Of a stretch of 64,000 nucleotides of DNA, positions 3,669 through 45,711 are shown one piece after another. The stretch covers positions 1 through 64,000 of the forward strand of contig JAJECP010000018.1 in assembly GCA_022821985.1 (NCBI GenBank). Direction: 5' to 3'. Each line of letters begins with the position of its first letter. The first letter of the stretch is position 1. The position numbers and the translations under genes were made by a program. Origin of the DNA: Acidimicrobiia bacterium (GTDB lineage Bacteria > Actinomycetota > Acidimicrobiia > Acidimicrobiales > Poriferisodalaceae). The notes below the pieces were generated by a model. That model saw nothing but the letters and a program-made list of their open reading frames with translations. It was not told where the DNA came from and ran no database searches.

Positions 3669-3677
3669 GCGACCCCT

Positions 3678-18229: not shown

Positions 18230-18435
18230 AGCGCCATTTTCTCACCACGCAACCGGTTTCGGCGGCCAGGTTCGACAGCGCTGCACAACGAGCCAGACCG
18301 ACCCTCGAAGCGCCCCGGGTCCTCATCGCCGGAAACCGGCTCGGTCACCGGTGAGACAGTGCCGTATATGTGCCATCGTCATGAGATGCTGAACGCAGAG
18401 CGGTTATTGTCCCGCTAGTTGCAGTTGCACCGTTT

Positions 18436-27794: not shown

Positions 27795-28223
27795 TCACCG
27801 TGCGACCTCCATGCGCCGATCGATGTCGCGGCGCAGCACGGCACGGATCTCGTCGAGTGCTGCAACCACCGGCACCCTGTCGGGACCCCAGCGATAGAGC
27901 GCCTCCACCAGCGGCGCCAACGATGTCATGCACGGGTCGCCCCGCAGTCCCGCCAGTGCAGTGCGGAGGTCTCCGGATGCGGCGGGTGACGACGTCTGCT
28001 CGCTTCCGATGAGCTCGTCCAAGCGTGAGATCAGCGCTTCGACATCGGCAGCCTCGGCGGCCCGGTGCCGCTCTCCCAGGGTCGCCTCGCGGGCGAGTCG
28101 CTCCAGGATCACACCGGCCATGTGGGTCTGTGTGCGCTGGTATTCGTCGCCGACAGCCGGCGCTATCTCGCGTCGTAACTGAACGGCCAGGCGCTTCATC
28201 AGCACATGGCTCTCGAAGCTCAT
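27795..28223 (-). CDS. Hypothetical helical protein, 142 residues
   Basis: I do not recognise a family. The protein is predicted to be mostly helical and charged, with patterns such as HVLMKRLAVQLRREIAP and RRDIDRRMEVA at the two ends and a Ser/Ala-rich middle (SSPAASG). There is no signal peptide or membrane segment. Its ATG overlaps the stop of the upstream lipocalin-like gene by 4 bases (ATGA, 28220-28223), and the phosphotransferase gene follows closely. Similar short helical proteins accompany phosphotransferases of this type and may be a partner subunit; this is inference from the coupling alone. Confidence 0.65.
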   Translation of the reverse strand: MSFESHVLMKRLAVQLRREIAPAVGDEYQRTQTHMAGVILERLAREATLGERHRAAEAADVEALISRLDELIGSEQTSSPAASGDLRTALAGLRGDPCMTSLAPLVEALYRWGPDRVPVVAALDEIRAVLRRDIDRRMEVAR

Positions 28224-30210: not shown

Positions 30211-31503
30211 ATGAGCGTGCCGGCTGCCAGCAAGCTGCTTGAGCGCCGGGAACAGGCGCTCGGCGCCGGCGCGCAGCTGTTCTATACCGAGCCCCTGCAC
30301 ATCGTGCGGGGCGACGGCGTCGAGCTCTTCGACGCCGACGGCCGCCGTTACATCGACATGTACAACAACGTGCCCTGCGTGGGCCACGGCAACACTCGGG
30401 TGGCCGAGGCGATGGCCGCCCAGCAGGCCACGCTGAACGTACACAGCCGGTACCTGCACGAGGGCATCGTGAGCTTCGCCGAGCGCCTGGTGGCGCTGCA
30501 TCACGACGGCATCGAGAGCGCAGTCATCAGCTGCACAGGCACCGAGGCCGTCGAAGTGGCCATGAACATGGCCCGCATCGCGACCGGGCGCCGGGGGGTC
30601 ATCGCCACCGACGCCACGTACCACGGCAATACCGAGACGGTCATCGCGCTGCGGCTGGCGGCGTCGCAGCCCGAGGAGCATCCCGAGGTGGCGACCTTCC
30701 CGTTTCCGCAGCAATTGCGACCGATCCGGGACGGGCTCGATGGCCCAGCACTGGCCGACGCCTACCTCGACGAGCTGGCCGCCGCCATCGGGCGGCTGAA
30801 GTCCTCCGGTGCGGGCGTGGCAGCCATCATCCTGTGCTCGATCCAGGCCAACGAGGGCCTGCCGGACATCCCCGGCAACTTCATGGCGCAGGCCGCACAG
30901 TTGGTACGCGAGGCCGGAGGCCTCGTGATCGCCGACGAAGTGCAAGCCGGCTACTGCCGCACGGGTCGCTGGTGGGGATATGAGGTCACCGGCTTCGAGC
31001 CCGACATTGCGGTCATGGGCAAACCCATGGGCAACGGGCTGCCGCTGGCGGCGACCGTTGCCAGCCGGCAGCTGGTGGAGCGCTTCCGGGGCGCCACCCG
31101 CTACTTCAACACCTACGGCGCGAGCCCGCTCCAAGCCGCAGTCGGTCACGCCGTCATCGACGAAATCGAAGATCGGGGGCTGGCTGCCAGCGTCGCCGAG
31201 ATCGGCTACGGACTCAAGCAAGCGCTGGTCGAGCGGGCCGAGCACTGCGAGTGGATCGCCGATGTCCGCGGCCATGGGCTGTTCATCGGTGTGGAGATGG
31301 TGGAGCGCGGCGGCAACCTCGTGCCAGACCGGTCCCGAGCAGTCGAGTTCACCGACCGGCTGAACGAGCGTGGCGTCCTCGCTTCGAATGCCGGCGCATT
31401 CGCCAACGTGCTGAAGCTTCGCCCACCGCTGGTGCTGCAGCAGTCCCACGCAGAGGAGTTCCTGTCAGCCTTCGACGCAGTCATCGACGACATCGATGGA
31501 TAG
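30211..31503 (+). CDS. Class III aminotransferase-fold PLP enzyme (possible phospho-lyase)
   Basis: A 430-residue fold-type I PLP enzyme. The Schiff-base lysine is K271 (VMGKPMGNGLPLA), and D242/E243 sit in VIADEVQAGYCRTG. The substring NVHSRYLHEGIVSFAERL (about 77-94) resembles the stretch that marks ethanolamine-phosphate and 5-phosphohydroxylysine phospho-lyases, which are aminotransferase relatives that remove phosphate and ammonia together. The next gene overlaps by 8 bases and encodes an APH-fold kinase, the known partner type for such phospho-lyases. An ordinary omega-aminotransferase is the alternative. There is no transit or signal sequence. Confidence 0.83.
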   Translation: MSVPAASKLLERREQALGAGAQLFYTEPLHIVRGDGVELFDADGRRYIDMYNNVPCVGHGNTRVAEAMAAQQATLNVHSRYLHEGIVSFAERLVALHHDGIESAVISCTGTEAVEVAMNMARIATGRRGVIATDATYHGNTETVIALRLAASQPEEHPEVATFPFPQQLRPIRDGLDGPALADAYLDELAAAIGRLKSSGAGVAAIILCSIQANEGLPDIPGNFMAQAAQLVREAGGLVIADEVQAGYCRTGRWWGYEVTGFEPDIAVMGKPMGNGLPLAATVASRQLVERFRGATRYFNTYGASPLQAAVGHAVIDEIEDRGLAASVAEIGYGLKQALVERAEHCEWIADVRGHGLFIGVEMVERGGNLVPDRSRAVEFTDRLNERGVLASNAGAFANVLKLRPPLVLQQSHAEEFLSAFDAVIDDIDG

Positions 31504-32494
31504 CCGCTGGCTCAGCGCGGCACATCAAGCGCTCGAAGCGTTCGGCGTGGAAGCGAGCCACCTCGAGTTAGTCGGAGTCAGCGAGAACATCACCTTCCGG
31601 GCTGTCGAAGCCGGTTCCCGACAGACCTATGTGCTGCGATTGCACCGGCCCGGCTACCACACAGCAGCTGAGCTCGACTCCGAGCGTGTCTGGCTGGCAG
31701 CGCTGCGCGACTCGGGCATCTACGTGCCCACGCCGATCTGCGCCCCCGACGGTCGCTACTTCGTGCCCGTGGAAACCGGACCCAGCGAGATCCGCAACGC
31801 CGGACTCAATCTGTGGGTTGACGGAGAGATCGTGGGCGTGCTGCTGACCCAGCCCGGAGGCACGAACGAAGCACTCTCGGAGATATCGGAGTCGTTCGGC
31901 CAACTCGGTGGACTGATGGCAGCTATGCACAACCAGGCGACAGCCTGGACGCCCCCCTCGTCGTTCAGCCGTCACCGCTTGGACCGCGATGGCCTGCTCG
32001 GCGATGCCCCCTTCTGGGGGCCGTTCTGGGAACACCCCAGGCTGACTGCCGGCGAGCGCGACCTTCTGATGGCCGCCCGTGACGCCTGCCGGACGACACT
32101 GGACCGGTACGGCGAGCCTGGGCGGACGTTCAGCATGATCCACGCCGACCTGCACCTGGCGAACTTGCTGTTGTCAGACGGTCAGCTCTCGGTCATCGAC
32201 TTCGATGACGCCGGGTTCGGCTGGCACCAGTACGACATCGCCGTGGCAATGTTCCATTCGCGGGCCGCCCCCGACTTCGAGACAGCTGCGACGGAGTTCT
32301 TGAACGGCTACCGAGATGTGCGGGCCATCAGCGACGACGATCTGGCCTTGGTGCCGTTGTTTGAGCTGATTCGAGGCATGGCCATCATTGGCTGGAAAGC
32401 CCAGCGGCCGGAGGTGGAATGGCCCGACGGTCAACTCGAGCAGCTGCTGAGCGGAGTGCTGGGCGGCTGCCGGCGTCTGCTCGACGGGGGCTAG
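31496..32494 (+). CDS. APH-fold small-molecule kinase
   Basis: A 332-residue kinase of the APH/choline kinase/homoserine kinase II fold. The catalytic motif is complete: MIHADLHLANLLL (about residue 215), followed by SVIDFDDAGFGWHQYDIA with the metal-binding Asp. The N-terminal lobe has ENITFRAVEAGSRQTYVLRLHRPG, a nucleotide-binding-type hairpin. It starts 8 bases inside the end of the aminotransferase-fold gene, so the two are translationally coupled. If the partner is a phospho-lyase, this enzyme would phosphorylate an amino alcohol such as ethanolamine or hydroxylysine. That pairing is inferred; the fold and catalytic residues are seen. Confidence 0.82.
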   Translation: MDSRWLSAAHQALEAFGVEASHLELVGVSENITFRAVEAGSRQTYVLRLHRPGYHTAAELDSERVWLAALRDSGIYVPTPICAPDGRYFVPVETGPSEIRNAGLNLWVDGEIVGVLLTQPGGTNEALSEISESFGQLGGLMAAMHNQATAWTPPSSFSRHRLDRDGLLGDAPFWGPFWEHPRLTAGERDLLMAARDACRTTLDRYGEPGRTFSMIHADLHLANLLLSDGQLSVIDFDDAGFGWHQYDIAVAMFHSRAAPDFETAATEFLNGYRDVRAISDDDLALVPLFELIRGMAIIGWKAQRPEVEWPDGQLEQLLSGVLGGCRRLLDGG

Positions 32495-32539: not shown

Positions 32540-33610
32540 GTGTGGGAGATCACTGAGCCCGATCTCGCACCGATCGCCTTGGGGGCTGCGGTGCTGGGAA
32601 CCGGTGGCGGCGGGAATCCCTATCTCGGCAGGCTGCGGGTGCTGCAGGTGATGCGAACCGGTGGTCGGGTACGGGTCATCGAGCCAAACGAGATTGCCGA
32701 CGACGACCTGCTGGTGGCCGTCGGCGGCATGGGCTCGCCGATGGTCAGCCACGAGAAGCTCGCAGGCGGCGACGAGGAGACCGTGGCCGCCCGGGCGCTC
32801 GAAGGCCACCTGGGCCGGAAGTTCGACGCGATCGCACCGTTCGAGATGGGCGGCAGCAACTCGATGGTGCCGATGGTGGTGGCAGCCGCAATGGACATCC
32901 CCATCGTGAACGGCGACGGCATGGGGCGTGCCTTCCCCGAGTTGCAGATGATCACGTACCTCATCTACGGCGGCAGCCCCTACCCCGCCGCCATTGCCGA
33001 TGAGCGAGGCAACCAGGTGATCATCTCTGACGTCCTCGACGCAAAATGGCTCGAGCGCATCGCCCGGGCTGCGACGGTCGAGATGGGCGCGCACACTGGG
33101 CTGGCGTCCGCGGTGATGGACGGTGCCTACTGCCGCCGCTCGATCATCCCCCAGACGCTGCGGCTCGCCAGCGAAATCGGCCATGCCGTACACCGTGCGC
33201 GCGATGTCAAGGACGATCCCTCTGAAGCGATCCTGGGTGTCGCAGGCGGGATGCGGTACCTGCGCGGCAAGGTGACCGACGTGCACCGGCGCAATGCGGC
33301 CGGGTTTGCGCGCGGCCAGATGACCGTGGCCGGCATCGGCGACGATGCCGGGCGCACCATCCGCATCGACTTCCAGAACGAGAACCTCGCCATCTACGAA
33401 GACGACGTGCCCCAGGTGATGGTGCCCGACCTCATCACGCTGGTCACCACCGACACCGGCGAGCCGATCACCACCGAGCTGCTGCGATTCGGCGTGCGTG
33501 CCGACGTGCTCGTGCTGCCTGCGCCGGAGCTACTGCGCACCCCCGAAGCACTGGCGGTCGTAGGCCCGCACGCGTTCGGCATCGACGCCGAGTACCGGCC
33601 CGCAGTCTGA
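32540..33610 (+). CDS. DUF917-family protein
   Basis: A 356-residue protein of the DUF917 family. Typical features are the N-terminal LGTGGGGNPYLGRL, AVGGMGSPMVSHEKL, and PFEMGGSNSMVPM followed by GDGMGRAFPELQM. The GTG at 32540 was chosen because GGAGGGG precedes it and the family N-terminus begins there. DUF917 proteins often occur beside hydantoinase/oxoprolinase-type proteins. Here it converges with the LLM gene that ends the large leftward operon containing such a protein, though it is on the opposite strand. It lies 45 bases after the kinase gene. Biochemical function is not established. Confidence 0.85.
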   Translation: MWEITEPDLAPIALGAAVLGTGGGGNPYLGRLRVLQVMRTGGRVRVIEPNEIADDDLLVAVGGMGSPMVSHEKLAGGDEETVAARALEGHLGRKFDAIAPFEMGGSNSMVPMVVAAAMDIPIVNGDGMGRAFPELQMITYLIYGGSPYPAAIADERGNQVIISDVLDAKWLERIARAATVEMGAHTGLASAVMDGAYCRRSIIPQTLRLASEIGHAVHRARDVKDDPSEAILGVAGGMRYLRGKVTDVHRRNAAGFARGQMTVAGIGDDAGRTIRIDFQNENLAIYEDDVPQVMVPDLITLVTTDTGEPITTELLRFGVRADVLVLPAPELLRTPEALAVVGPHAFGIDAEYRPAV

Positions 33611-33620
33611 GGGCTCACAT

Positions 33621-33678
33621 GCGAGCGCCGGCGAAGCCTTGGCGCCTTATCGGGTGAGCGCCGACGAAGCGTTGGCGC
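33621..33678. repeat. Imperfect 33-bp tandem duplication at the end of an LLM gene
   Basis: The 25 bases at 33621-33645 and 33654-33678 match at 22 positions with a 33-base period, exactly 11 codons. The right copy encodes the C-terminal end of the leftward LLM gene; the left copy lies just beyond its stop. Each copy contains an inverted AGCGCC/GGCGC core that could form a hairpin between the convergent genes. A past in-frame duplication followed by a stop is one explanation; a hairpin terminator is another. Confidence 0.5.
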
Positions 33679-34669
33679 TCGCAATAGACGGCAGAACCTC
33701 GCGGGCGGTGAGGTCGATGATCTCCGAGAGCCGGTCGGTCGCGATGGGAGCCAGCGCTACCGAGTCGGCACCCCCGGCCAGCAGCGCCCGGATCTTGTCG
33801 GCGCACTCCGCCGGGGTACCCGCCACGGTCAGGTCGGCGACCCACTGGTCGGGCATGCCGTCTCGCACGGCCTCGTAGCCGCCGTGGTCGATCAGTACCT
33901 GTAGCTCGTCGGAGATCCCGTACACGTCGGTGAGGGCATTGGGGCCATGCTGGCGGTAGAAGGCCAGCGATGCCCGTGCCGAGTCACGAGCTGCCTGGCC
34001 GTCTTCGTCCACGGCGTACAGCGCGAACACAGTGATCGGGTGAGGATCGGTGCGGCCGGCGATCTCGCGACCCTCGTCTATGCGCTCGGAGGCCCACTCC
34101 ACGTAGCGCAGGCTCGAGCACACCGACAGGATCGTTCCGTCAGCGATCTCGCCGCCCAGCCGCAGCATGTTCGGCCCTGACACGCCGAGGCGGACAGGCA
34201 TCGGCGGTCCCGTCTCGGGAAAGGTGAGCTTGACGTTGTCGAAGTCGAACAGGCCGCCGTGCCGGTCCAGCGTGTCGCCGCCGAGCAGCGCCTTGACCGC
34301 CGTCACGCACTCCCGGACAGCCTGCAGCGGCGAACGGGGATGCAGGCCCATCTGGCGTACCCATGCCGGCACTCCTAGGCCCACACCTGCGATCAGCCGC
34401 CTGGGCGACGAGCGGCTCAGCGTGGCCAGCTCCATCGCCAGCACCGAGGGATGGCGGGCCACCGCCGACACCACACCCAGGCCCACGGTGATCTCGCTCG
34501 TGGCCCCGAGCACCACGGAGGCACCGGAGATGCCGCCCGTGAAGAAATAGTCCTCCGCAAGCCAGATCTCGTCGAAGCCGCTGTCCTCGGCCTGCGTGGC
34601 AGCCCCAGCGATGTCCTCGGGGGCGATCGCGCTGCCCAAGATGAGGCCGATCTTGCCTTGTGTGCTCAT
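33647..34669 (-). CDS. LLM-class F420/flavin-dependent oxidoreductase
   Basis: A 340-residue luciferase-like enzyme. Recognisable stretches are AEDSGFDEIWLAEDYFFTGG, VGLGVVSAVARHPS, SSPRRLIAGVGLGVPAWV and PVRLGVSGPNMLRLGGEIADG, the last being typical of F420-dependent members. It is the last of six overlapping leftward genes: its ATG overlaps the hydantoinase-like gene's stop by 4 bases (34666-34669). In the inferred pathway it could be a monooxygenase or a hydride-transfer reductase acting on a ring or its opened product. Its last codons lie in a small tandem duplication. Confidence 0.87.
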   Translation of the reverse strand: MSTQGKIGLILGSAIAPEDIAGAATQAEDSGFDEIWLAEDYFFTGGISGASVVLGATSEITVGLGVVSAVARHPSVLAMELATLSRSSPRRLIAGVGLGVPAWVRQMGLHPRSPLQAVRECVTAVKALLGGDTLDRHGGLFDFDNVKLTFPETGPPMPVRLGVSGPNMLRLGGEIADGTILSVCSSLRYVEWASERIDEGREIAGRTDPHPITVFALYAVDEDGQAARDSARASLAFYRQHGPNALTDVYGISDELQVLIDHGGYEAVRDGMPDQWVADLTVAGTPAECADKIRALLAGGADSVALAPIATDRLSEIIDLTAREVLPSIASANASSALTR

Positions 34670-36294
34670 GGGCCACCTCCCCCGCCGGATATGCCGTTGC
34701 CCGCAGCGAGGTCACCGACTGCCTTCACGCGGATCCGTATGGCGTTCGACGGCAGGTATGTGAGGGGGATCTCATCGATGTCGGTGATCTCGACGGTGGC
34801 CGCGTCGGCGCCCGCGTCGACCGCGCGCTGGGACGTGACCGAACGGGCCTCGGCCATTGCCTCGTCGCGGGTCATCGACGCCATCGAGTACACCCGGTCG
34901 GTCTCGGCGCCGACCTGGGCGATGGCTGCGCCGATCGCGCTGGCAACCGAGAAATAGTCGGGTCGTATCGTTTCCGACGCTCCCGCCAAGCCGTCACGCA
35001 CCAGCACTCCCCCGCCGCCCACCACCACGACCGGTACCGGGTCGGCCGACGTCTTCATCTGTTCGACTGCGGTGGCCAGCATGTCCTGCATGCATTCGAC
35101 CGCATCGCCCACCAGCCCAGCGTCGACGTCGCTGACCGTCGCGCGGTCGCCGATGTCGGCCATGCCGGCTGCAGCGGCGATGTCCGTAGCGGTCAGCTCG
35201 TCGCCGCCGAACACCAGCGCCCGGTCGGTGAGCTCGTAGCCGACGCTGTCGGGCCCCACTGTCACGTCGGCGCCATCTCCGTCGGCGCCATTGCCGGAGC
35301 GCACCAGACTCCCGCCGCCGAGTCCCAGCGAGAGCACGTCGGGCATCCGGAAGTTCGTGCGCACTCCCGCGACCGAGACCGCAGTCGAGGCCTCTCGGGG
35401 GAAGCCGTGCACCAGCACGCCCACATCAGACGTCGTGCCCCCCACGTCGATGACCACTCCGTCCCGGATGCCGCTCAGGAATGCCGCTCCCCGCATCGAG
35501 TTGGTGGGGCCCGAGGCGAATGTGGCCACCGGGTAGCGGCGAGCAAAGTCGGCGCTCATCAGGGTGCCGTCGTTCTGGCTGACGTGCAGCGGGCAGTCGA
35601 GGCCAAGCTCGACCAGCGCCCCGATCAGCCCGGACACGGTGCGCTCGGCGAGCGGTCGCAGGCACGCATTCACGACCGCAGCGTTCTCACGCTCGAGCAG
35701 CCCCAGTCGGCCGATCTCGCTGGACAGGCTGATGTCGAGTTCCGGTGCCTCGTCAGCCAGGACATCACGGGTTTCGGCTTCGAAGCTGTCGTCGACGGGC
35801 GAGAAGACCGAGGCCACCGCCACCGAGTTCACGCCCTTCGAGACGATGTCCTGCGCTGCAGCCCGCAGCTCGTCGTGATCGATGGGGCTGATCAGCCGCC
35901 CGTCGAATTCGTGGCCGCCGTGGCAGAGATAGACGTGGTCGCCGAGCACGGCCCGCAGCCGCTCGGGCCAGTCGATGAACGGCGGCAGTCCCCGCGTGGC
36001 GGGGAGCCCGAGCCGCACGACGGCAGTGGGCACGAGGCGGCGTCCCTCCACCAGGGCGTTGGTGAAGTGCGTCGTGCCGATCATGACCGCACCGATCGCT
36101 TCGGGCGACGCGCCGCAGTCGTCGAGCACGGCCCGGACAGCGGTCACGATGCCGTCGGTCACCTCAGGTGTCGTGACAGCCTTGGACCACCCCACCACCT
36201 CGCTGCCGGACATGGCGACCGCGTCGGTGTTGGTGCCGCCCACGTCCACACCGATCCGCAACCTTCCAGGCGCCGCCGGCTGCGGTGAACTCAC
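34666..36294 (-). CDS. Hydantoinase/oxoprolinase-family protein (HyuA-like, short form)
   Basis: A 542-residue actin-fold ATP-dependent amidohydrolase of the HyuA/oxoprolinase family. The phosphate loops are present: GVDVGGTNTDAVAM at the N-terminus and VIDVGGTTSDVGVLV near residue 285. GTTHFTNALVEGRRLVPTAV is a family hallmark. It is shorter than classical HyuA (about 680-700 residues), and no HyuB partner is in the window. This short form is common beside DUF917 genes. Members use ATP to open lactam or imide rings such as oxoproline and hydantoin. It overlaps both neighbours by 4 bases and so belongs to the six-gene operon. Its target may be the ring product of the molybdenum hydroxylase. 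Confidence 0.87.
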   Translation of the reverse strand: MSSPQPAAPGRLRIGVDVGGTNTDAVAMSGSEVVGWSKAVTTPEVTDGIVTAVRAVLDDCGASPEAIGAVMIGTTHFTNALVEGRRLVPTAVVRLGLPATRGLPPFIDWPERLRAVLGDHVYLCHGGHEFDGRLISPIDHDELRAAAQDIVSKGVNSVAVASVFSPVDDSFEAETRDVLADEAPELDISLSSEIGRLGLLERENAAVVNACLRPLAERTVSGLIGALVELGLDCPLHVSQNDGTLMSADFARRYPVATFASGPTNSMRGAAFLSGIRDGVVIDVGGTTSDVGVLVHGFPREASTAVSVAGVRTNFRMPDVLSLGLGGGSLVRSGNGADGDGADVTVGPDSVGYELTDRALVFGGDELTATDIAAAAGMADIGDRATVSDVDAGLVGDAVECMQDMLATAVEQMKTSADPVPVVVVGGGGVLVRDGLAGASETIRPDYFSVASAIGAAIAQVGAETDRVYSMASMTRDEAMAEARSVTSQRAVDAGADAATVEITDIDEIPLTYLPSNAIRIRVKAVGDLAAGNGISGGGGGP

Positions 36295-38567
36295 GATTCA
36301 GCCTCCAGGGCCTCCAGCACCGCTTCGGGAGTGATCGGCAACGTGTCGAACGGCACGCCGATGGCATCGGAGACGGCATTGGCCACCGCCGCGGCCACTG
36401 GGACGATCGGGGGCTCGGCAGCGCCCTTCGCTCCGTACGGCCCGGCAGGGTCAACGTGTTCCATCACGATCATCTCCACCTTCGGCACATCTTCCGCCAG
36501 CGGCAAGCCGTGTGCCTTGAACGTGCGCTGGACATAGCGACCGTGATCGAGATCGACACGCTCGCTCAACGCGAAGCCCAAACCCTGGGCGACTCCGCCC
36601 TGGATCTGCCCAGCGATGGCGTCGGGGTGAATGGCCCGGCCCACCTCCTGGCACACGACGTATCGGTCGACGGTGACCCGGCCGGTGACCACGTCGACGC
36701 TCACCTCGGCCTGGTGCAGGTGGTAGGTGGGCGTCGGCCATCCCTTGATCAGCATGCCGGTGGCGCACGCCGGGTCGTGCGGAGGCGTCGGCGTGACATA
36801 CGAAGCGCCCGCAGTGATTGGCCCGTCAGACCAGGTGGCCGCCTGCGCGACCGCACCGAGCGTCAGGCTGGCAGCGGGCACCCCCGCAACCGCCACGACA
36901 CCGTCGTCGATCGTCAAGTCTTCGGGGGCCGCTTCCAGCATCTGGCTCGCCCGGTCCAGCACTTGGCTGCGAACCTCGGCTGAAGCATCAGCGATGGCCC
37001 GGCCGACAACGTGGGTGGTGCGGCTGCCTTGCGACCCGGCGTCGTAGCCGGTGGCGTCCGTGTCGGGCATGGTGATCGTCACAGCGTCAGCAGCAAGACC
37101 GAGCGTCTCGGCCGCGATCTGCCGCAAACCAGTGGCCACGGCGCCCGAGCCGTTCTCGGTCGCCGAAGTGATCACCGTGGCGGTGCCGTCCTCGTTGAGC
37201 TTCACCGTGGCGTGGCCGGGCATCGGATTGGTCAGCCACACCGCCGCCGCCTGCCCGACGCCTCGCAGCTCGCCTGTGCCCGCGCCCTGCCAGGGCGCTA
37301 GCTCATCGACTCGGTCGAAGGCTTCTCGCAGGATCGAGATCTCTTCGAGCGGCTGGCCGTTGCGCATCAGATCGCCGTCACGGGCTAGCGATGCCAACCG
37401 GAACTCCCGGCGATCCCGATCCAAGGCGTCGGCAACGGCGTCTATGTGCCGCTCGTTGGCGAACACCAGCCACGGCCCATTCACCCCCCGGTAGGCACCG
37501 GTCGGAGCGGTGTTCGTGTAGACGTTGCGGGTGCGGATGCGCGCAGTGCCCACCCTGTAGATCGAGCCGAAGACGAACATCGGGATGGCCGATAGCGCCG
37601 GGCCGTTGTTGGCGTAGGCACCGCTGTCAGAGACGATCTCGACGTCGGTGGCCAGGATCGTGCCGTCGCCGCTCACCGCAGAGCGGATTGAGACCAGCGC
37701 ATTGGCCCGGCAAGGTGCCACGAGGCGCTCTTCGAGTGCAGCGTGCTGCATGCGCACCGGACGCCGGTAGCGGCGAGCCAGCAGCGCGGCAAAGGCCTCA
37801 AGGCTGACATCAAGCTTGGCGCCGAAGCCTCCGCCGATGTGATGGCCGACCACGCGCACTGCCGAAGGCGCCACGCCCAGCATCTGGGCGACACGGTCTC
37901 TCAGCCGGAACGGGTACTGGTGGGACACCTCGATGACGTAGCGGCCCGACTCGTAGGTCGCGAGCGCCATCTTGGGCTCCAGATGCGCCTGGTACTGCCG
38001 GGGCGTGCGGTACGTACCCTCCACGACGACGTCGGCGACCGCGAACGCCTCGTCCAGGTCTCCCGGGTCGTGGACCACTTCGGCTACCACGTTGCCGTCA
38101 CGCCCAATGTCAGCGCCGCCAGTCACGGCAAAGCGGTTCCAATCGGGGTGGACCAGCCGCACACCCGGCGCCAGTGCCTGTTCGGGCGTCGATACGGGCT
38201 CGGTCGGTTCGATGTCGATGTCAACCGCCTGAGCGCCCGCGTCGGCCGCGGCACGGTTGTCCGCCACCACGATCGCCACCGGTTCGCCTTCGTAAGCCAC
38301 ATAGTCGGCCGCCAGGAAGGGAATGTCGTTCACGATGACACCGGTGCGCCCATCGGGAACATCGGCAGCTGTCAGCACATCCAGCACGCCGTCGACCTTG
38401 AGTGCCGGTCCCGAGTCGATCGAGCGGATGCGGCCCGCCGCAACCGGAGACCTCGAGATCGACGCCCACAGCATCCCCGGCCTTGCAAGGTCGGCACCGA
38501 AGACCGCCTCGCCACGAAGCTTCGCGTCGGCATCGCTCCGGGCGGGATTGGACCCGAGCAGACTCAC
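36291..38567 (-). CDS. Molybdopterin subunit of a xanthine oxidase-family hydroxylase
   Basis: The 758-residue catalytic subunit. The core is visible as GHHIGGGFGAKLDVSLEAFA (about residue 240), TAPTGAYRGVNGPW (about 345) and the late YGAKGAAEPPIVPVAAA segment with the catalytic Glu. The AYRGVN loop differs from the AYxCSFR loop of true CO dehydrogenases, so this is a general carbon hydroxylase. The GTG at 38567 was chosen because it overlaps the 2Fe-2S gene by 4 bases (GTGA); the longer open frame upstream lies within that gene. Together with the FAD and 2Fe-2S subunits it makes a complete three-subunit enzyme that hydroxylates a heterocycle or aldehyde using water. Confidence 0.9.
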   Translation of the reverse strand: MSLLGSNPARSDADAKLRGEAVFGADLARPGMLWASISRSPVAAGRIRSIDSGPALKVDGVLDVLTAADVPDGRTGVIVNDIPFLAADYVAYEGEPVAIVVADNRAAADAGAQAVDIDIEPTEPVSTPEQALAPGVRLVHPDWNRFAVTGGADIGRDGNVVAEVVHDPGDLDEAFAVADVVVEGTYRTPRQYQAHLEPKMALATYESGRYVIEVSHQYPFRLRDRVAQMLGVAPSAVRVVGHHIGGGFGAKLDVSLEAFAALLARRYRRPVRMQHAALEERLVAPCRANALVSIRSAVSGDGTILATDVEIVSDSGAYANNGPALSAIPMFVFGSIYRVGTARIRTRNVYTNTAPTGAYRGVNGPWLVFANERHIDAVADALDRDRREFRLASLARDGDLMRNGQPLEEISILREAFDRVDELAPWQGAGTGELRGVGQAAAVWLTNPMPGHATVKLNEDGTATVITSATENGSGAVATGLRQIAAETLGLAADAVTITMPDTDATGYDAGSQGSRTTHVVGRAIADASAEVRSQVLDRASQMLEAAPEDLTIDDGVVAVAGVPAASLTLGAVAQAATWSDGPITAGASYVTPTPPHDPACATGMLIKGWPTPTYHLHQAEVSVDVVTGRVTVDRYVVCQEVGRAIHPDAIAGQIQGGVAQGLGFALSERVDLDHGRYVQRTFKAHGLPLAEDVPKVEMIVMEHVDPAGPYGAKGAAEPPIVPVAAAVANAVSDAIGVPFDTLPITPEAVLEALEAES

Positions 38568-39067
38568 GATGTTGCCGCCCGGATCATCAACTGGGCGGCG
38601 TCGAGCGCCGCTTCCACTATCTGCTGGTACCCGGTGCAGCGGCAGATGGTGCCTGCGAGTGCTCGGCGGACATCGGCCTCGGAAGGGTCCGGAGTGTCCT
38701 CCAGCAAGGCTGTCAGCACCATCAGCACGCCAGGCGTGCAATAGCCGCACTGGACGGCGGCATGGCTGACGAAGGCTTGCTGCAGTGCAGTGAGCTCCCC
38801 CGTCCCGGCGAGCCCTTCGACCGTGAGAACCGTCCGGCCGTTCGTCGAACCGGCGGCCAATATGCACGAAGCCACCGGAGCGCCGTCCATCAGCACGGTG
38901 CAGGCACCGCATTCGCCCTCACAGCATGCTTCCTTCGGTCCGAGGAGCGAGAGGCGCTCCCGCAGCATGCTGAGCAGAGTCTCCCCCGCACCTACGTCGA
39001 GTTGGTGGCGCCGCTCATTCACGATGAGCCGGATGGAGACGGATTGCTCGCCCGCGGCGCCAGGCAT
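38564..39067 (-). CDS. 2Fe-2S subunit of the molybdenum hydroxylase
   Basis: A 167-residue electron-transfer subunit with two [2Fe-2S] clusters. The plant-type cluster uses C48, C53, C56 and C68, and the C-terminal cluster uses C107, C110, C142 and C144 (CGYCTPG and CRCTGY). The ATG at 39067 shares one base with the stop of the FAD-subunit gene (TGATG), which decides the start. Another ATG 11 codons upstream would lie inside that gene. Electrons pass from the molybdenum site through these clusters to the FAD subunit. Confidence 0.93.
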   Translation of the reverse strand: MPGAAGEQSVSIRLIVNERRHQLDVGAGETLLSMLRERLSLLGPKEACCEGECGACTVLMDGAPVASCILAAGSTNGRTVLTVEGLAGTGELTALQQAFVSHAAVQCGYCTPGVLMVLTALLEDTPDPSEADVRRALAGTICRCTGYQQIVEAALDAAQLMIRAATS

Positions 39068-39933
39068 CAGCTTCCCACCCCGGAGATCCCTGCGACACAT
39101 CGCTCCGCCAACCGGCTCAGCAGTCTGGGGAGCACCCGCCGCCTGTACTCAGCCTCTCTTGCCCGTTCGGGCGCTGCGGCACTCGCGAGCTCTGCGCCGG
39201 CGTCGGTGCAATCGAGACGACCGTCGACAAGCTGGGTGCCCACGACTGCAGCTTCTGCGCTCGGCACTCTGTGCGGCGGCCGGGTTCCGCCGCACACAGC
39301 GATTCGAGCATTGTTGACGACGCCGGTCGGCGTCACCGACAGCCGGAGCGCCAAGCCCACCACCGCAAGGTCCATGGCACTGCGGCGGCCCACCTTCACG
39401 TATCCCTCGGCGCTGCGCTCTCCGAGCGGCTCCGCCTCGATGGCCCGCAGCAGTTCGGTCGGCCGCAGGGCCGTCGCGCCGGGCCCCTCGAGGAACTCCT
39501 CCAGCCCGATGCGCCGACGGCCCGATTTCGACACCAGCATCAGCTGCGCATCGGCGACGAGCAGCGCGGGCAACGTGTCGGCTGTTGCCGCCGCTGAGCA
39601 GATGTTGCCGCCCAGCGTGGCCACCGTCTGGGTCTGCCACGCTCCGACCGCCGTAGCCGCCTGCGCCAGCGCCGGGTGCCGCATCGCGACGAGCGACGCT
39701 GTGGCAAGCCTGCGCAAGGTGACCAACGTGCCGATGCTGGTGACGCCGCCGACCTCCGAGACGCCCTGCAATCCGTCGATCCCGCTGATGTCGATCAGCG
39801 CAGCCGGAGGCTGCTCACCTCGCAGGTACTGCGGCATCACGTCGGTTCCGCCCGCCAGGATGCGGCCCTCGGTGCCCCAGCGGCTCAGCTCGTCGACCGC
39901 CTCGGCGACACTGCGAACCCTGCAGAACCTCAC
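39067..39933 (-). CDS. FAD-binding subunit of the molybdenum hydroxylase
   Basis: A 288-residue CoxM/XdhB-like subunit. Both FAD contacts are present: ILAGGTDVMPQYLRG (about 25-40) and VATLGGNICSAAATAD (about 105-120). The C-terminal domain (EGYVKVGRRSAMDLAVVG) matches the family's FR/xR D region. The GTG start at 39933 overlaps the stop of the reductive-dehalogenase-like gene by 4 bases (GTGA). It accepts electrons from the 2Fe-2S subunit and passes them to NAD or another acceptor. The coupling to the upstream Fe-S protein raises the possibility that electrons are shared between the two, which is inference. Confidence 0.92.
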   Translation of the reverse strand: MRFCRVRSVAEAVDELSRWGTEGRILAGGTDVMPQYLRGEQPPAALIDISGIDGLQGVSEVGGVTSIGTLVTLRRLATASLVAMRHPALAQAATAVGAWQTQTVATLGGNICSAAATADTLPALLVADAQLMLVSKSGRRRIGLEEFLEGPGATALRPTELLRAIEAEPLGERSAEGYVKVGRRSAMDLAVVGLALRLSVTPTGVVNNARIAVCGGTRPPHRVPSAEAAVVGTQLVDGRLDCTDAGAELASAAAPERAREAEYRRRVLPRLLSRLAERCVAGISGVGS

Positions 39934-42011
39934 TGGCCGACGCGCTCCCGTGCTGCCCCGGGTGACTCGGCCTCCTGCGACGCTGCAATGCCGGCTTCAC
40001 GATTCAGCGGGAACGGGGCCATCCCGTCCGGGCCGGGCGGGGCCATCTCCGGCGGGAACATCGCGAAGCCCGATTCGTCTCGCGGCTTGCGCTCGAGGTT
40101 AAGGCCCCTCGTGTTCGCACCCTTCGGCGGCTCGACCGGCGTGTCCTCGAGCACCTCGATGTCCACCCACCACTTCTTCGCCGGGTTGATCTCGCCGCGG
40201 CCGAGCTTGTCGTCGAGCCGGGCGATCCACGAGCGGGCGAACGGCAACTTCATCGCCGCCCACTGGAACGGGCGCTCGGCCAGCACTCCTTCGACGTTGT
40301 ACGGGTACGTCTTCATGCAGCGCCCGCAGGCCGAGCCACGCATGTTGGTGATCCGGTAACGGGCGCAACGGTCGACGTCGGGCTTCCACATCTCGTACCC
40401 GTTGAACATCACCTTGTCGCCGAAGCGGATAGCCCCCACCGGGCACTCGCGGGCGCACTTGGTGCACTTGGTGCAGAAGTCCTGCAGCCCGAAGTCGATC
40501 GGTCGGTCCGGGGTGAGCGGCATGTCGGTGGTGATGGCGCCCGACTTGAAGCGCGGTCCCACGAACGGGTTCAGCACCAGCTCACCAATGCGTGACAGCT
40601 CCCCGATGCCGGCCGACAGCAGCAGCGGTATGTGGTTGATCTCGTCGTCGGCGGCGGTGTGCGCCTGCGCGTCGTAGCCGAGCCGGCGGATCTGGGCGGC
40701 GATCGCATTGGCGATGATCGACGCCCGCAGGTAGGCCCGCATCGACTGTGCACCGCTGATCCAATCGTCGCCCGAAGCGCCCTCCATGGTCTCGAAGCCC
40801 TGATCGAGCACGAACACGATCGCGTTGCGGTGCAGCTTCTCGATGGGCGAGCCGTCAAAACGGTGGGAGTACCAGGCATATTCGGGCGCCTCGCACACGC
40901 CGGTCATGTCCGCGCCGATGAAATGACCCAGCGCTTTGACCGCGTCGGCGTTCGCTGCCGGGTTGTCCGCACCCGGGCCGACCTCGGGGGCAGCCTCGCC
41001 CCGCTGCAGCGGAACCAACCGCCGCAACATCTCTTGCGAGGCGATGCCATGCGGCGCCTTGCGGATGAAGCGAGCCACCTCCTTGCGCGGGCGAGGGCCC
41101 AGGTCGCCGGCGCCGGCCCGCACGAAGAAGTTGTGCCGCGCCGCAGGTCGCGTGACCTCTTCGGGTATGACCAGCGTGGTCGGCTCGTCGACCCGCTTCA
41201 CCTTCTCCATCGGGTAGCGGCCGAGGTGCCACGGCCGGTGCCGCCCGTAGAGACGGCTCCACCCCGGCCGGGTGCCACCCCAGCCCAGCCAGTGCCGGAG
41301 GGAGATGCGCAGGTTCTGCACGACATTGCGCGGCGCGAGCGGGCCGTCGGGAGTGAGTTCCAGATTCGTCGTGACCACCGCAATGGCGAACCCCCGCTTC
41401 AGGAAGGGATGTCCGAGCCCGCGGCGATCTGTCTCAAGCACCCCAGCTTCGACGCCGATCCGGAAGCGATCCACATCTGAGGCTGCTGCAGTGTGTGCGG
41501 TGGCCCCATATCCGAGTGTGCCCAGATACCGAGTGAGCACAGTGGCGATTTCCGTGGCACGCAGGTCGGCGTTGTCCTGTTCAGAACCGGCGATCCAGTC
41601 ATATCCCGGCTCGCCTGGCCGGATGGGTCGCCCCAGCCCCACGACGATCGCGATGGCACTGCGGTGCCCTTCGATCGGTTCAGCAGTCCAGCTCTGCCGC
41701 GACGGCTCGCAGATGCCAGCGAGGTCGGCATCGAGGAAGAAGCAATACCCGCGCATGTTGTCCACCGCAGCTTGTGCACTCGGCATCGGTGCCGGCGCCG
41801 CCAGCACATCCGCTGTCCGGCATGCTGTGAAGACGTCAACGATGTCGCCGAAAACGCCAGCCACGCCCCACTCTTCCGGTGAGGCTGGTGCGGGCGGCGG
41901 GTCGGGCACTTCCTTCCTCACGTCGAACGCCCCGGGCGAGAGCCGGGGCAGCAGCTCGGTAGGCAGCGGACCGGCCGCCGCGGCTCGCTTGCGGTGCGAG
42001 AACAGGCGCAT
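39930..42011 (-). CDS. Duplicated reductive-dehalogenase-like 4Fe-4S protein
   Basis: A 693-residue protein related to the catabolic, non-exported reductive dehalogenases and epoxyqueuosine reductase, which are cobalamin Fe-S enzymes. Two copies of the cobalamin-type domain can be aligned by eye. Residues about 82-226 contain DADLAGICEP, LGYGATAHTAAASD and LELTPDGPL. Residues about 355-504 contain GADMTGVCEAP, LGYDAQAHTAADDE and MPLTPDRPI. Only the second copy leads into the ferredoxin part: C513, C516, C519 and C523, then C549, C562 and C565. The final expected Cys before Pro is Y569 (MKTYPYN). No Tat signal is seen, so it is cytosolic. It is the first gene of six coupled genes. Confidence 0.8.
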   Translation of the reverse strand: MRLFSHRKRAAAAGPLPTELLPRLSPGAFDVRKEVPDPPPAPASPEEWGVAGVFGDIVDVFTACRTADVLAAPAPMPSAQAAVDNMRGYCFFLDADLAGICEPSRQSWTAEPIEGHRSAIAIVVGLGRPIRPGEPGYDWIAGSEQDNADLRATEIATVLTRYLGTLGYGATAHTAAASDVDRFRIGVEAGVLETDRRGLGHPFLKRGFAIAVVTTNLELTPDGPLAPRNVVQNLRISLRHWLGWGGTRPGWSRLYGRHRPWHLGRYPMEKVKRVDEPTTLVIPEEVTRPAARHNFFVRAGAGDLGPRPRKEVARFIRKAPHGIASQEMLRRLVPLQRGEAAPEVGPGADNPAANADAVKALGHFIGADMTGVCEAPEYAWYSHRFDGSPIEKLHRNAIVFVLDQGFETMEGASGDDWISGAQSMRAYLRASIIANAIAAQIRRLGYDAQAHTAADDEINHIPLLLSAGIGELSRIGELVLNPFVGPRFKSGAITTDMPLTPDRPIDFGLQDFCTKCTKCARECPVGAIRFGDKVMFNGYEMWKPDVDRCARYRITNMRGSACGRCMKTYPYNVEGVLAERPFQWAAMKLPFARSWIARLDDKLGRGEINPAKKWWVDIEVLEDTPVEPPKGANTRGLNLERKPRDESGFAMFPPEMAPPGPDGMAPFPLNREAGIAASQEAESPGAARERVGQ

Positions 42012-42127: not shown

Positions 42128-42811
42128 TCAGTCGGCGACGACTGGGGGCGTGGTCTCGCTCATCCGGTCCCACACCACCTGATCGGGCAGGCTCATCACC
42201 ATGTCGTAGTGGTCTTCGGGCATCAGCCGCGGCATGCCGGTATCCCCCGACGGCTGAGGCACGGGCTCGACCGGGCGGCTGTATTCCGCCGGGTACTTCA
42301 ACTGCTCCAGTTCGGCCGCAGAGATCCCGCACAGGTCCTGGACTTCAGGGTCCACCCACTGCTCGACGGGGATGGCCGACCCGCATGCCACCTCGAGCGC
42401 CAGTCCCTCTGGACCCGCGAAATAGATCGACTGGATGAAGCCGTGGTCGATCGGGCCGAACACCTGCACGCCGCGATCGCGGATGCGGTCACGCAGTGCC
42501 ATCAGGTCCTCGAAGGTGTCCACGTTGAACGCCACGTGCTGCATCGTGCCGGCAGTCACGGGCTCGCCCGGCCCACCTGCGTGAGTGACACCGAGCTCGA
42601 TGTCCTTGGCGTTGTCCGGGTGCTGGACGAATGCCACGTAGCTGTCGGGCGCCAGCTCCACGAAGCCGTGGTAGGTGCCGTCCACGCCGTGCATCCAGTA
42701 GAGCGCCTTGAGCGGCAGTCCCAGCACATCGCACCAGAACTCCAGCTGGCCCTTCATGTCGCGGGTGGACAGGGCGAGATGGTTCACACCATTGGGATGC
42801 AATGCGGCCAT
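42128..42811 (-). CDS. VOC-superfamily protein (extradiol dioxygenase/glyoxalase type)
   Basis: A 227-residue vicinal-oxygen-chelate protein. Likely metal ligands are H11 (VNHLALSTRD), H91 (MQHVAFNVD) and E140 or so (GLALEVACG), the spacing of extradiol dioxygenases and glyoxalases. The two beta-alpha-beta-beta-beta modules cover about residues 8-75 and 85-145. The tail from about 145 is Pro-rich and specific to this protein. It lies 116 bases upstream of the reductive-dehalogenase-like gene on the same strand. If it cleaves rings it would fit an aromatic pathway, but isomerase or resistance-type functions are possible. Confidence 0.8.
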   Translation of the reverse strand: MAALHPNGVNHLALSTRDMKGQLEFWCDVLGLPLKALYWMHGVDGTYHGFVELAPDSYVAFVQHPDNAKDIELGVTHAGGPGEPVTAGTMQHVAFNVDTFEDLMALRDRIRDRGVQVFGPIDHGFIQSIYFAGPEGLALEVACGSAIPVEQWVDPEVQDLCGISAAELEQLKYPAEYSRPVEPVPQPSGDTGMPRLMPEDHYDMVMSLPDQVVWDRMSETTPPVVAD

Positions 42812-42901: not shown

Positions 42902-43384
42902 TCACGACCCGGGTGAGGAAGCCTGCTCTGCGCCGGCAGCGAGCGCCTCTTTGTGCCGTTCGTAACTCCCCACCATCTCCAAGAACCGCTCTGGGTTGTA
43001 GATGTCCTCTTCGTAGCTCCACAGGCCGTCGCCTGCGTACTTGAGGAGCGAGAAGTTGTACTCCCGATGGTCAGAACCATCGCCGGGGTCGGCCATGCGG
43101 TTCCAGATCTGGCACACCACCCAGCCACGTTCCTCATCGATGATGTACCACTCGATGGGGAACTCGATCATCTCCGATCCCGGCCACTCGCTCATCTGGG
43201 ACTGGATCCACTCGTAGATGGCCTCGCGTCCGACCATCGTGCCGAAGAAGTGCTCGACGTAGGTTGCGTCCTCGGTGAAGCGATCGGCCCAGTCGCGCCA
43301 GTCGCCGGTCTGGCCCGCCTTCTTGCTGGCCGCCTGATAGGTGGCAAGCGCTTCGGTGATCTCGGCTCGGCTCCATTGGCTCAT
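42902..43384 (-). CDS. NTF2/SnoaL-like protein
   Basis: A 160-residue cone-shaped alpha+beta-barrel protein of the NTF2-like superfamily. An N-terminal helix (TEALATYQAASKKAGQTGDW) is followed by the family-typical WADRFTEDATYVEHFFGTMVGREAIYEWI. The later strands are EFPIEWYIIDEERGWVVCQIW and the acidic LWSYEEDIYNPERF. Members include isomerases, hydrolases and small dioxygenase subunits, so only the fold is assigned. It sits between the VOC gene and an LLM gene in the leftward run, with 90- and 56-base gaps. Confidence 0.8.
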   Translation of the reverse strand: MSQWSRAEITEALATYQAASKKAGQTGDWRDWADRFTEDATYVEHFFGTMVGREAIYEWIQSQMSEWPGSEMIEFPIEWYIIDEERGWVVCQIWNRMADPGDGSDHREYNFSLLKYAGDGLWSYEEDIYNPERFLEMVGSYERHKEALAAGAEQASSPGS

Positions 43385-43440: not shown

Positions 43441-44451
43441 TCATGACGTCGCCAGCGGGGCAATCACCTGCTCGGCGAAGAGGTCGAACGAGCGGTCCAC
43501 CTCGTATGCCGAGAGGTCGCCCCAGGCGAAGACGCCGACGAAATAGTCCGTGCCGGCTTCTTCGGCGAACTGCTCGCAGTGTTCACGCACGGTCTCGGGC
43601 GAGCCCACGACCACGGCTTGGAAGTGCTTGGCCTTGTCGTAGTCGCCGCCGAGAGTCGGATCATTCGGCGGGGTCATCTCGTAGCGCCTGAACAACCGGG
43701 TCAGGTGCTCGGTGAACGCAGCCCAGGTACGGCGGCCGATCTCGTCAGCCTCAGCATCGGTGGGCGCCACGATCAGCCGGCGCAGCCCGCCGATCATCGG
43801 CGAATGATGCCTGCCGATGCCGCCGGGGTCGAGAAGCTCGTGGTAACGAGCCGTGCTGGCTGCCACGGCAGCGAGCGGTCCTGCGGCCATGGTGCGCACG
43901 CCCATCTCGGCGGCAGTCTCGAGCTGGCCGGGTCGCCACAGCGGCGGGTAGGGCCGCTGGTAGGGCTCGAATTCGATCGGCACATCACGGAATTCGTAGA
44001 ACTCGCCCTCGAAGCTGAAGTTGCCCGTGGTCTGCATGGCGGCCAGGATCAGCTCCAGCGACTCGTCTGTCTGCGCGACGGCATCGTCAGGGTCCAGACC
44101 CCACAGCAGGTGCTCGGGCACGCTGATGCCCTTGCCGAAGCCGAACTCCAGCCGGCCCTCGGAGAGCTGGTCGAGCATGCACAGCTCCTCGGCCAGCCGG
44201 ATCGGGTGGTAGAAGGGCAGCAGGTGCACCAGCGAGCAGATGCGGATGCTGCTGGTGCGCTCGATGGCGGCGGCCAGGAACACGTTGATGCTGGGCGCAG
44301 CATCCAGCGGGATCAGGTGGTGCTCAGACTTGTGCCATCCCCACACACCGGCTTGCTCGGCCCGTGCCAGCAGGTCCAGGCGGTGCCGGTAGAGCTCATG
44401 CCACGGCACATCGCCCGGCTGTTCGAGCTGGTCGAAGATGCCGAATCGCAT
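43441..44451 (-). CDS. LLM-class flavin-dependent monooxygenase-like protein
   Basis: A 336-residue luciferase-like protein. The family layout is clear: MRFGIFDQLEQPG at the start, then KSEHHLIPLDAAPSINVFLA, RICSLVHLLPFYHPIRLAEE and LDQLSEGRLEFGFGKGISVPE. It resembles alkanal-monooxygenase-type members more than F420 reductases. The ATG at 44451 is favoured because the first barrel strand begins there; the frame continues to 44484 without conserved sequence. The ribosome-binding site is weak. The FAD oxidoreductase gene lies 69 bases upstream on the same strand. Confidence 0.85.
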   Translation of the reverse strand: MRFGIFDQLEQPGDVPWHELYRHRLDLLARAEQAGVWGWHKSEHHLIPLDAAPSINVFLAAAIERTSSIRICSLVHLLPFYHPIRLAEELCMLDQLSEGRLEFGFGKGISVPEHLLWGLDPDDAVAQTDESLELILAAMQTTGNFSFEGEFYEFRDVPIEFEPYQRPYPPLWRPGQLETAAEMGVRTMAAGPLAAVAASTARYHELLDPGGIGRHHSPMIGGLRRLIVAPTDAEADEIGRRTWAAFTEHLTRLFRRYEMTPPNDPTLGGDYDKAKHFQAVVVGSPETVREHCEQFAEEAGTDYFVGVFAWGDLSAYEVDRSFDLFAEQVIAPLATS

Positions 44452-44520
44452 GGGCAGCGAGAGTAGTGGTGGGACCGGATGCACGGCCGAGGCGCCAGCC
44501 AGCCCTGCTCGAACGACAAC

Positions 44521-45711
44521 TCAGATGATGGCGCTCTCGACGAATGGCTCGCCGTCGACGATGCGCTGGTAACCCAGCGGCGTGAGGTCCAGCGTGCGGT
44601 ACTCGCCGTAGGCAATCCACTCCGACACGGCCCGACCGATGGCTGGCGATTGCTGCATGCCGTGTCCCGAGAACCCGTTGGCAAAGATGAAGTTCTCTGT
44701 CTCGTGGTGCGGTCCGACCACCACGTTGTGGTCGAGCGTGTTGTAGGCGTAATGACCGGCCCACTGGCTGGTGACCTTGAGGCGCTCGAAGGCAGGCACG
44801 CGATGGGCCAGCACCGGCCACACCTTGCCCTCGAAGATGTCGTGGTCCATGGCGAAGTCGTCGTAGTCGACGGCGGGGTCCGCGTCGGGCGTGCAGCCGC
44901 ACATGTAGGCATCGCCGTCGCTGCGCATGTGGACACCGGTCGGATCGATGGTCAGCGGCAGGGCGCGATCGAGCGGCTCTGCTGCGTCGAAGATGAACGT
45001 GTAGCGCTTGCGCGGCTCCACCGGCAAGGTCGCGCCTGCCATACGGGCCACTTCGACTGCGCGCGGCCCAGCGGCGTTCACCAAGGTTCCGCAGCCGACT
45101 TCGCGCCCCGATGCCAGCAGTGCCGAGGTCACACGTCCAGCTGAGATGACGAGATCGACAACTTCGTCGGTGATGTAGGTGACGCCGTTCTGGCGCGCCT
45201 TGCGACGCCACCAGTCGAACATCGTGCCCGAGTCGAAGTAGCCCTCGTCCGTCAGGTTGTGGCTGCCGCAGATGATGTCGTCGACGTTGTAGAAGGGGTA
45301 GTCGGCCTTGATCTCGGCCGGGCTCATGATGCGCGTGCCAGAGCCCAGCCCGGCCTGGATGGCATGGTTGCGGCGCAGCGCGTCGGCGAAGCGCTCATCG
45401 GCGGCGAGGTACATGTAGCCGAAGTGGTGGGTGAAGATGTCGGGGATTTCAGGATCGCCGCCGAGACGTTCCCGGAAGTTGCGCACGAAGTCGGCGCTGA
45501 AGCGCGAGATCTGCACGTTGAGCGGGTTTGAGAACTGTTGACGCATGCAGCTGTTGGTGTGGGTGGTGGATGCATTCGCGTAGGTCGGGTCGCGCTCCAC
45601 CACCAGCACCGATCCGTCGAAGCCGTCGCTGGCCGACAGCGCCCAGGCGATCGACGACCCCATCACCGCCCCGCCCACGATCACCACGTCATAACTGTCT
45701 TGCATCGCCAC
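44521..45711 (-). CDS. FAD-dependent amine/amino-acid oxidoreductase (DAO family)
   Basis: A 396-residue flavoprotein of the D-amino-acid oxidase/sarcosine oxidase-beta/glycine oxidase family. The N-terminal dinucleotide motif is VVIVGGAVMGSSIAWAL, and NAAGPRAVEVARMAG is the second FAD contact near residue 215. The C-terminal FANGFSGHGMQQSPAIGRAVSEWI is the family's closing FAD motif. It is expected to oxidise a secondary or primary amine, giving an imine that hydrolyses to a ketone or aldehyde. It lies 13 bases after the MDR dehydrogenase gene, in the same leftward transcript. Confidence 0.88.
   Translation of the reverse strand: MAMQDSYDVVIVGGAVMGSSIAWALSASDGFDGSVLVVERDPTYANASTTHTNSCMRQQFSNPLNVQISRFSADFVRNFRERLGGDPEIPDIFTHHFGYMYLAADERFADALRRNHAIQAGLGSGTRIMSPAEIKADYPFYNVDDIICGSHNLTDEGYFDSGTMFDWWRRKARQNGVTYITDEVVDLVISAGRVTSALLASGREVGCGTLVNAAGPRAVEVARMAGATLPVEPRKRYTFIFDAAEPLDRALPLTIDPTGVHMRSDGDAYMCGCTPDADPAVDYDDFAMDHDIFEGKVWPVLAHRVPAFERLKVTSQWAGHYAYNTLDHNVVVGPHHETENFIFANGFSGHGMQQSPAIGRAVSEWIAYGEYRTLDLTPLGYQRIVDGEPFVESAII

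Follow-up and report, generated by a model that had tools for sequence, protein, structure and literature searches.

What joins a reductive dehalogenase homologue (RdhA) to a molybdenum hydroxylase, a HyuA-like protein and an LLM-class oxidoreductase in a single row of overlapping genes? The question is raised by positions 33647-42011 of a 64,000-nucleotide stretch of an Acidimicrobiia bacterium genome (contig JAJECP010000018.1, positions 1 to 64,000; the whole stretch is termed the window), where six minus-strand genes, here named A to F, follow one another with overlapping ends. An initial annotation of the window proposed that the six proteins are probably made together in fixed proportion and may serve one pathway. 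Comparison with related genomes points to a different answer. The row is best read as the downstream stretch of a composite catabolic operon that counts about ten genes and is confined to a single genus of Acidimicrobiia, and it is likely that this operon combines a halophenol-type dehalogenation module with a module for the oxidation and opening of N-heterocycles. Two independent modules would have been joined into one row of co-directional genes in this genus: module 1, with an FAD oxidoreductase, an LLM enzyme, a SnoaL protein, a VOC protein and RdhA, and module 2, with the Mo hydroxylase B-C-D, the short HyuA-like E, the Mer-like LLM F and a convergent DUF917 gene. The second module is a separate, older set that probably oxidises and opens nitrogen rings.

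The six genes are intact open reading frames, and reading the sequence recovers each of the five overlaps reported by the initial annotation: GTGA at 39930-39933 (A/B, 4 bp), TGATG at 39067 (B/C, 1 bp), GTGA at 38564-38567 (C/D, 4 bp), GTGA at 36291-36294 (D/E, 4 bp) and ATGA at 34666-34669 (E/F, 4 bp). The genes and their conserved neighbours are as follows, with the matching models or structures in brackets.

39930..42011, minus strand: gene A, catabolic reductive dehalogenase homologue, RdhA, 693 aa, NpRdhA type (4ras, TIGR02486)
39067..39933, minus strand: gene B, FAD subunit of molybdenum hydroxylase (PF00941, PF03450)
38564..39067, minus strand: gene C, 2Fe-2S subunit of molybdenum hydroxylase (PF00111, PF01799)
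36291..38567, minus strand: gene D, molybdopterin subunit of molybdenum hydroxylase (PF01315, PF02738, PF20256)
34666..36294, minus strand: gene E, short HyuA-like ASKHA-fold protein, 542 aa (PF05378, partial PF01968)
33647..34669, minus strand: gene F, LLM-class flavin/F420 oxidoreductase (PF00296, Bac_luciferase)
32540..33610, plus strand: convergent DUF917 gene, S-methyl-thiohydantoin-desulfurase-like (PF06032, PF20906)
42128..42811, minus strand: VOC-superfamily protein, upstream on the RdhA side (PF00903)
42902..43384, minus strand: SnoaL/NTF2-like protein, upstream on the RdhA side (PF13577)
43441..44484, minus strand: second LLM-class oxidoreductase, upstream on the RdhA side (PF00296)
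44521..45711, minus strand: FAD-dependent sarcosine-oxidase/DAO-like oxidoreductase, first conserved gene of the co-directional row (1y56_B)

Overlaps of 1-4 bp are ordinary inside operons. The genes are under purifying selection among congeners, with pairwise ratios of non-synonymous to synonymous substitution (dN/dS) mostly of 0.03-0.3, so the row is not a chance chain of reading frames. The polycistronic arrangement originally proposed is supported, and within the genus A-F are probably co-transcribed. Sigma-70-type promoters and terminators inside the region did not rise above shuffled sequences, a test that is uninformative in this phylum.

Within the genus the order of the row is largely kept. 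The window genome is a metagenome-assembled genome (MAG) of 3.3 Mb in 41 contigs, and the closest named records are likewise Acidimicrobiia MAGs, such as JAJEFK010000025.1, whose RdhA is 98% identical. RdhA is followed by B-C-D and, where contigs permit, by E-F and DUF917 in eight of nine congeners. At the A/B junction even congeners differ from one another: the window and four relatives share the 4-bp overlap, while in four of the nine (G018, G016, G024 and G023) additional genes, spanning about 1 to 9.3 kb, separate A from B. Three of these inserts (G018, G016, G024) encode a 345-aa protein with no Pfam match, of which G023 has a remnant. An intradiol dioxygenase is encoded in two, those of G023 and G024, and the G023 insert adds a thiolase, a Liv-type transporter and CoA-transferase fragments. 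A further relative, G021, keeps RdhA and has lost B-F and DUF917 except for a remnant of B. Thus RdhA is separable from B-F, and the fixed proportion first suggested does not hold as a conserved feature linking RdhA to the other genes. Some observations weigh against the composite reading. A stays with B-F, or with as many of them as the contigs reach, in eight of nine relatives, as a joint pathway would also give; the inserted genes of G023 and G024 suggest aromatic catabolism, although the dioxygenase is present in only two of eleven genus genomes; and the relatives compared are mostly MAG assemblies. Hydroxyquinol- or catechol-type intradiol ring cleavage was also considered as a fixed partner of RdhA and was rejected on that same low count.

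Outside the genus the two modules come apart. RdhA is never followed by B-F in the 74 loci fetched from outside the genus set, whose RdhA are 43-71% identical. In a few of these another Mo-hydroxylase set lies some kilobases away (as in L060, where genes of the opposite strand stand between), which is unsurprising since one genome, that of the window, carries about 13 such large subunits. Among 395 genomes of the class, homologues of D (49-66% identical) occur in 16 other genomes and homologues of F (50-65%) in 14; these are almost identical sets of genomes, all of them outside the order of the window genome. D and F lie on one contig in eleven genomes, 1.4 to 9.6 kb apart, D is directly followed by E in ten fetched loci and B-C-D-E is complete in seven, the internal overlaps of B-C-D also being present in another order of the class. 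In the B-C-D-E-F regions of another order an orthologous DUF917 gene (62-72%) is present as well, usually on the strand opposite to B and immediately upstream of it. F is found at a distance of a few kilobases, accompanied by an oligopeptide-type ABC importer; several of the regions also hold a further LLM protein, a threonine-synthase-like enzyme and an M24 creatinase/prolidase-like hydrolase. Two genera of one family of another order (loci L249 and L250) carry a compact operon in the order DUF917-E-F-B-C-D, and that at L249:6413-13806 would serve well for studying the module without RdhA. No RdhA homologue was detected in any fetched D/F module region of the other order and, beyond the class, D has no match at E<=1e-170 in a sample of 396 genomes of the phylum apart from the window's own. 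As the cluster of B-F and DUF917 recurs without RdhA, the six genes that recur as a unit are B to F and DUF917, and not A-F. An ancestral unit A-F is rejected, as RdhA occurs without B-F in the fetched loci outside the genus and B-F without RdhA in another order. The comparison does not support A-F as the functional set. What it shows directly is the gene content, order and conservation of the modules, their separability and the conserved residues of RdhA.

Gene A is certainly a homologue of the catabolic reductive dehalogenases of the NpRdhA class, of oxygen-tolerant type, which sharpens its first description as reductive-dehalogenase-like. A phmmer search aligns residues 1-691 with NpRdhA over the full length (4ras, 2e-182, about 44% identity), and the RDH model TIGR02486 gives 172.6 bits, above its cut-off of 160.35. 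Residues S422, Y426, K488 and R552 of NpRdhA bind the phenolic hydroxyl and donate a proton (PMC7565698). The equivalents of the last three, Y427, K489 and R553, are present in 80 of 80 homologous loci, and S423, equivalent to S422, is invariant in alignment A1. By inspection the N-terminus, MRLFSHRKRAAAAG, displays no twin-arginine signal, as expected of a cytoplasmic protein. Lacking a C-terminal reductase domain, gene A falls in the 'truncated' catabolic subclass (PMC10463259). Nor do the ten genes include a recognisable ferredoxin reductase. On the basis of its family, RdhA would be a cytoplasmic enzyme with cobalamin and two [4Fe-4S] clusters that removes halogen from ortho-halogenated phenol-type substrates. 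The window genome also encodes a second, short double-cluster protein of the RdhA/QueG kind (L002:1009-2067, 352 aa), which has matches in most congeners.

The window copy of RdhA differs from its homologues at one cluster ligand. Codon 569 (40305..40307, minus strand) is TAC and encodes Tyr where the second iron-sulfur motif has its final ligand, a position occupied by Cys in 80 of 80 homologues; seven of the eight Cys ligands for the two [4Fe-4S] clusters are therefore present in the window, against eight of eight in all 80 homologues. With Tyr in place of a Cys that all 80 homologues have, the window enzyme may be impaired; alternatively, the letter may be a miscall. It is possible, though we consider it rather unlikely, that C569Y has removed a cluster ligand from a protein that no longer functions, its gene starting to decay while being carried along by the operon. 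The five private changes of the window RdhA at sites invariant among nine congeners, compared with one in its nearest relative, are in keeping with such a loss, as is the Cys of all 80 homologues. In contrast, the reading frame is intact, the pairwise dN/dS of about 0.1 is low, and a single-base miscall in the MAG, or strain variation, could yield the Tyr codon.

The Pfam domains identify B, C and D as the FAD, 2Fe-2S and Mo subunits of a xanthine-dehydrogenase-family enzyme, and by inspection D retains the active-site Glu in its C-terminal GAKGAAEPP motif. The best solved relative of D is the alpha subunit of 4-hydroxybenzoyl-CoA reductase (4-HBCR; 1rm6, 3.5e-86), followed by aldehyde oxidoreductase (1sij) and quinoline 2-oxidoreductase (1t3q), and D remains below every NCBIfam equivalog cut-off (440 bits against 780 for XdhA, 418 against 994.55 for 4-HBCR). 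The window holds a second, single-chain Mo-hydroxylase gene at 13343-15934. Gene E consists of Hydant_A_N (PF05378) and a partial Hydantoinase_A domain (PF01968, profile positions 1-173 of 291) and matches N-methylhydantoinase over residues 13-414 (7hk5, 5.8e-23). Both phosphate motifs and the GGGG motif are intact by inspection, the C-terminal part of HyuA is missing, and E thus falls short of a complete HyuA/5-oxoprolinase. The module loci gave no recognisable HyuB homologue, a genome-wide HyuB search not having been made. Gene F is nearest to the F420-dependent methylene-tetrahydromethanopterin reductase Mer (1z69, 5.5e-38), at 163.8 bits against the equivalog cut-off of 276. The DUF917 gene encodes both S-Me-THD domains (PF06032, PF20906) and scores far below the S-methyl thiohydantoin desulfurase NCBIfam equivalog (66 against 450 bits).

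A DUF917 gene directly adjoins the E homologue in 20 of 20 fetched loci (L178-L197), which are regions around other E homologues sampled across the order and include second copies in the window's genus. DUF917 is therefore counted as a partner of E; the six-member set first drawn had left out this convergent gene, the closest partner of E. The partnership itself, like the reactions and substrates, is what we infer from family membership and gene neighbourhood. The enzyme B-C-D would hydroxylate an N-containing ring next to the nitrogen, the pair E and DUF917 may then open the resulting lactam or hydantoin-like ring at the expense of ATP, and the LLM enzymes could act on the ring-opening products. 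The logic of N-heterocycle hydroxylation followed by ATP-dependent ring opening, already present in the initial annotation, is supported for the Mo hydroxylase and the HyuA-like protein. A class-III phospholyase-like gene (best solved relative the phospholyase 5g4i) overlaps an APH-family kinase gene at 30211-32494, a pair resembling the kinase and phospho-lyase pairs for hydroxylysine or phosphoethanolamine; in the congener locus L039 an aldehyde dehydrogenase gene (17435-18874) lies between DUF917 and the kinase.

On the RdhA side, an upstream extension by VOC, NTF2, LLM, FAD and MDR genes had been suggested, and congeners bear out all but the last. The FAD oxidoreductase (1y56_B sarcosine oxidase, 2.3e-28), LLM and VOC genes are conserved and linked to RdhA in congeners, and the SnoaL/NTF2 gene was not found in two of them. 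The MDR-family gene (45725-46783), which lies between an SDR gene and that of the FAD oxidoreductase, was not found in any congener examined and is rejected as a part of the operon. Outside the genus, no conserved set of FAD, NTF2, LLM and RdhA genes was seen near VOC orthologs (49-68% identical), where two loci have weak LLM matches and one partial RdhA-like match of 33% lies 5 kb away. Elsewhere in the window, 2361-4172 encodes what appears by eye to be the large subunit of a Rieske-type ring-hydroxylating oxygenase followed by a small SnoaL-like subunit.

A plausible alternative, though a somewhat less probable one than loss of RdhA function, is a joint pathway in which RdhA dehalogenates a halogenated N-heterocyclic or phenol-bearing natural product, B-C-D hydroxylate it, E and DUF917 open the ring, and the LLM, VOC and FAD enzymes complete the breakdown. 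In favour of such a pathway are the linkage of A with module 2 throughout the genus, the A/B overlap that the window shares with four relatives and, as for the composite reading, the largely similar trees of the RdhA and B-F sides and the purifying selection on all genes; against it are the interrupted junctions in four relatives, the retention of RdhA without B-F in G021 and the occurrence of each module without the other elsewhere. In a more specific form, which is doubtful, the genus, probably marine and perhaps animal-associated, would run a single aerobic pathway in which the cobalamin dehalogenase acts on a halogenated N-heterocyclic natural product and the Mo hydroxylase and split HyuA/DUF917 finish the work. 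It is improbable that the overlaps reflect mere compact packing of a high-GC genome with functionally unrelated neighbours. With about 13 Mo-hydroxylase large subunits in the genome, one near any gene is unsurprising, and 4-bp overlaps occur elsewhere in the window (28220-28223, for example), but B-C-D recur with E, F and DUF917 in another order far above chance linkage; packing is thus already contradicted for B-F and DUF917 but may hold for A with B-F. That the flavin and FeS subunits B and C carry electrons from the oxidation of D's substrate to RdhA, coupling hydroxylation to dehalogenation, is very improbable, for although A overlaps B in the window and RdhA has neither a reductase domain nor a recognised ferredoxin reductase among the ten genes, RdhA is kept without B-C in G021 and in loci outside the genus, and B-C-D are complete without RdhA elsewhere.

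The composite reading resolves a misleading operon into its parts and leaves two testable units: an RdhA that has become fixed in a single genus of uncultured actinobacteria, and a six-gene module (DUF917, short HyuA, LLM and three-subunit Mo hydroxylase) whose conservation extends to another order of the class. In the open-licence papers searched no description was found of this module or of an RdhA combined with a Mo hydroxylase and HyuA, and nothing useful on DUF917 function. Some record labels give an unverified hint that the genus lives in sponges; should that be so, organobromine dehalogenation in sponges would not depend on anaerobic Desulfoluna alone.

Among known systems, the xanthine dehydrogenase family (4-hydroxybenzoyl-CoA reductase, aldehyde oxidoreductase, quinoline 2-oxidoreductase and XdhABC) displays the same three-subunit FAD/2Fe-2S/Mo make-up as B-C-D, which differ from the named enzymes XdhABC, 4-HBCR and carbon monoxide dehydrogenase in not reaching an equivalog cut-off. 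Gene E has the N-terminal ASKHA region and ATP motifs of ATP-dependent hydantoinase/N-methylhydantoinase HyuA and 5-oxoprolinase, although it is about 150 residues shorter and pairs with DUF917, and the latter has both family Pfam domains of S-methyl thiohydantoin desulfurase while possibly catalysing a different reaction. The A6RdhA and T7RdhA of Acidimicrobiaceae, linked to per- and polyfluoroalkyl substances, are reductive dehalogenases from the same class of bacteria as gene A; T7RdhA, however, belongs to the PceA branch as described (PMC10008544) and gene A to the NpRdhA branch. The self-sufficient catabolic enzymes BhbA and JtRdhA, the latter with brominated phenols as known substrates (PMC10463259), have the same catalytic domains as gene A and, in contrast to it, a fused phthalate-dioxygenase-reductase domain. 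The closest likeness is to NpRdhA of Nitratireductor pacificus (PDB 4ras, 6zxu), which is collinear with gene A over its full length, similarly without a C-terminal reductase domain, and has the same Tyr/Lys/Arg/Ser active-site set. A ferredoxin oxidoreductase is present in the NpRdhA cluster (PMC10463259), whereas none was recognised beside gene A; the window protein has Tyr at the last cluster ligand and, unlike NpRdhA, gene A shares an operon with a Mo hydroxylase/HyuA module within its genus.

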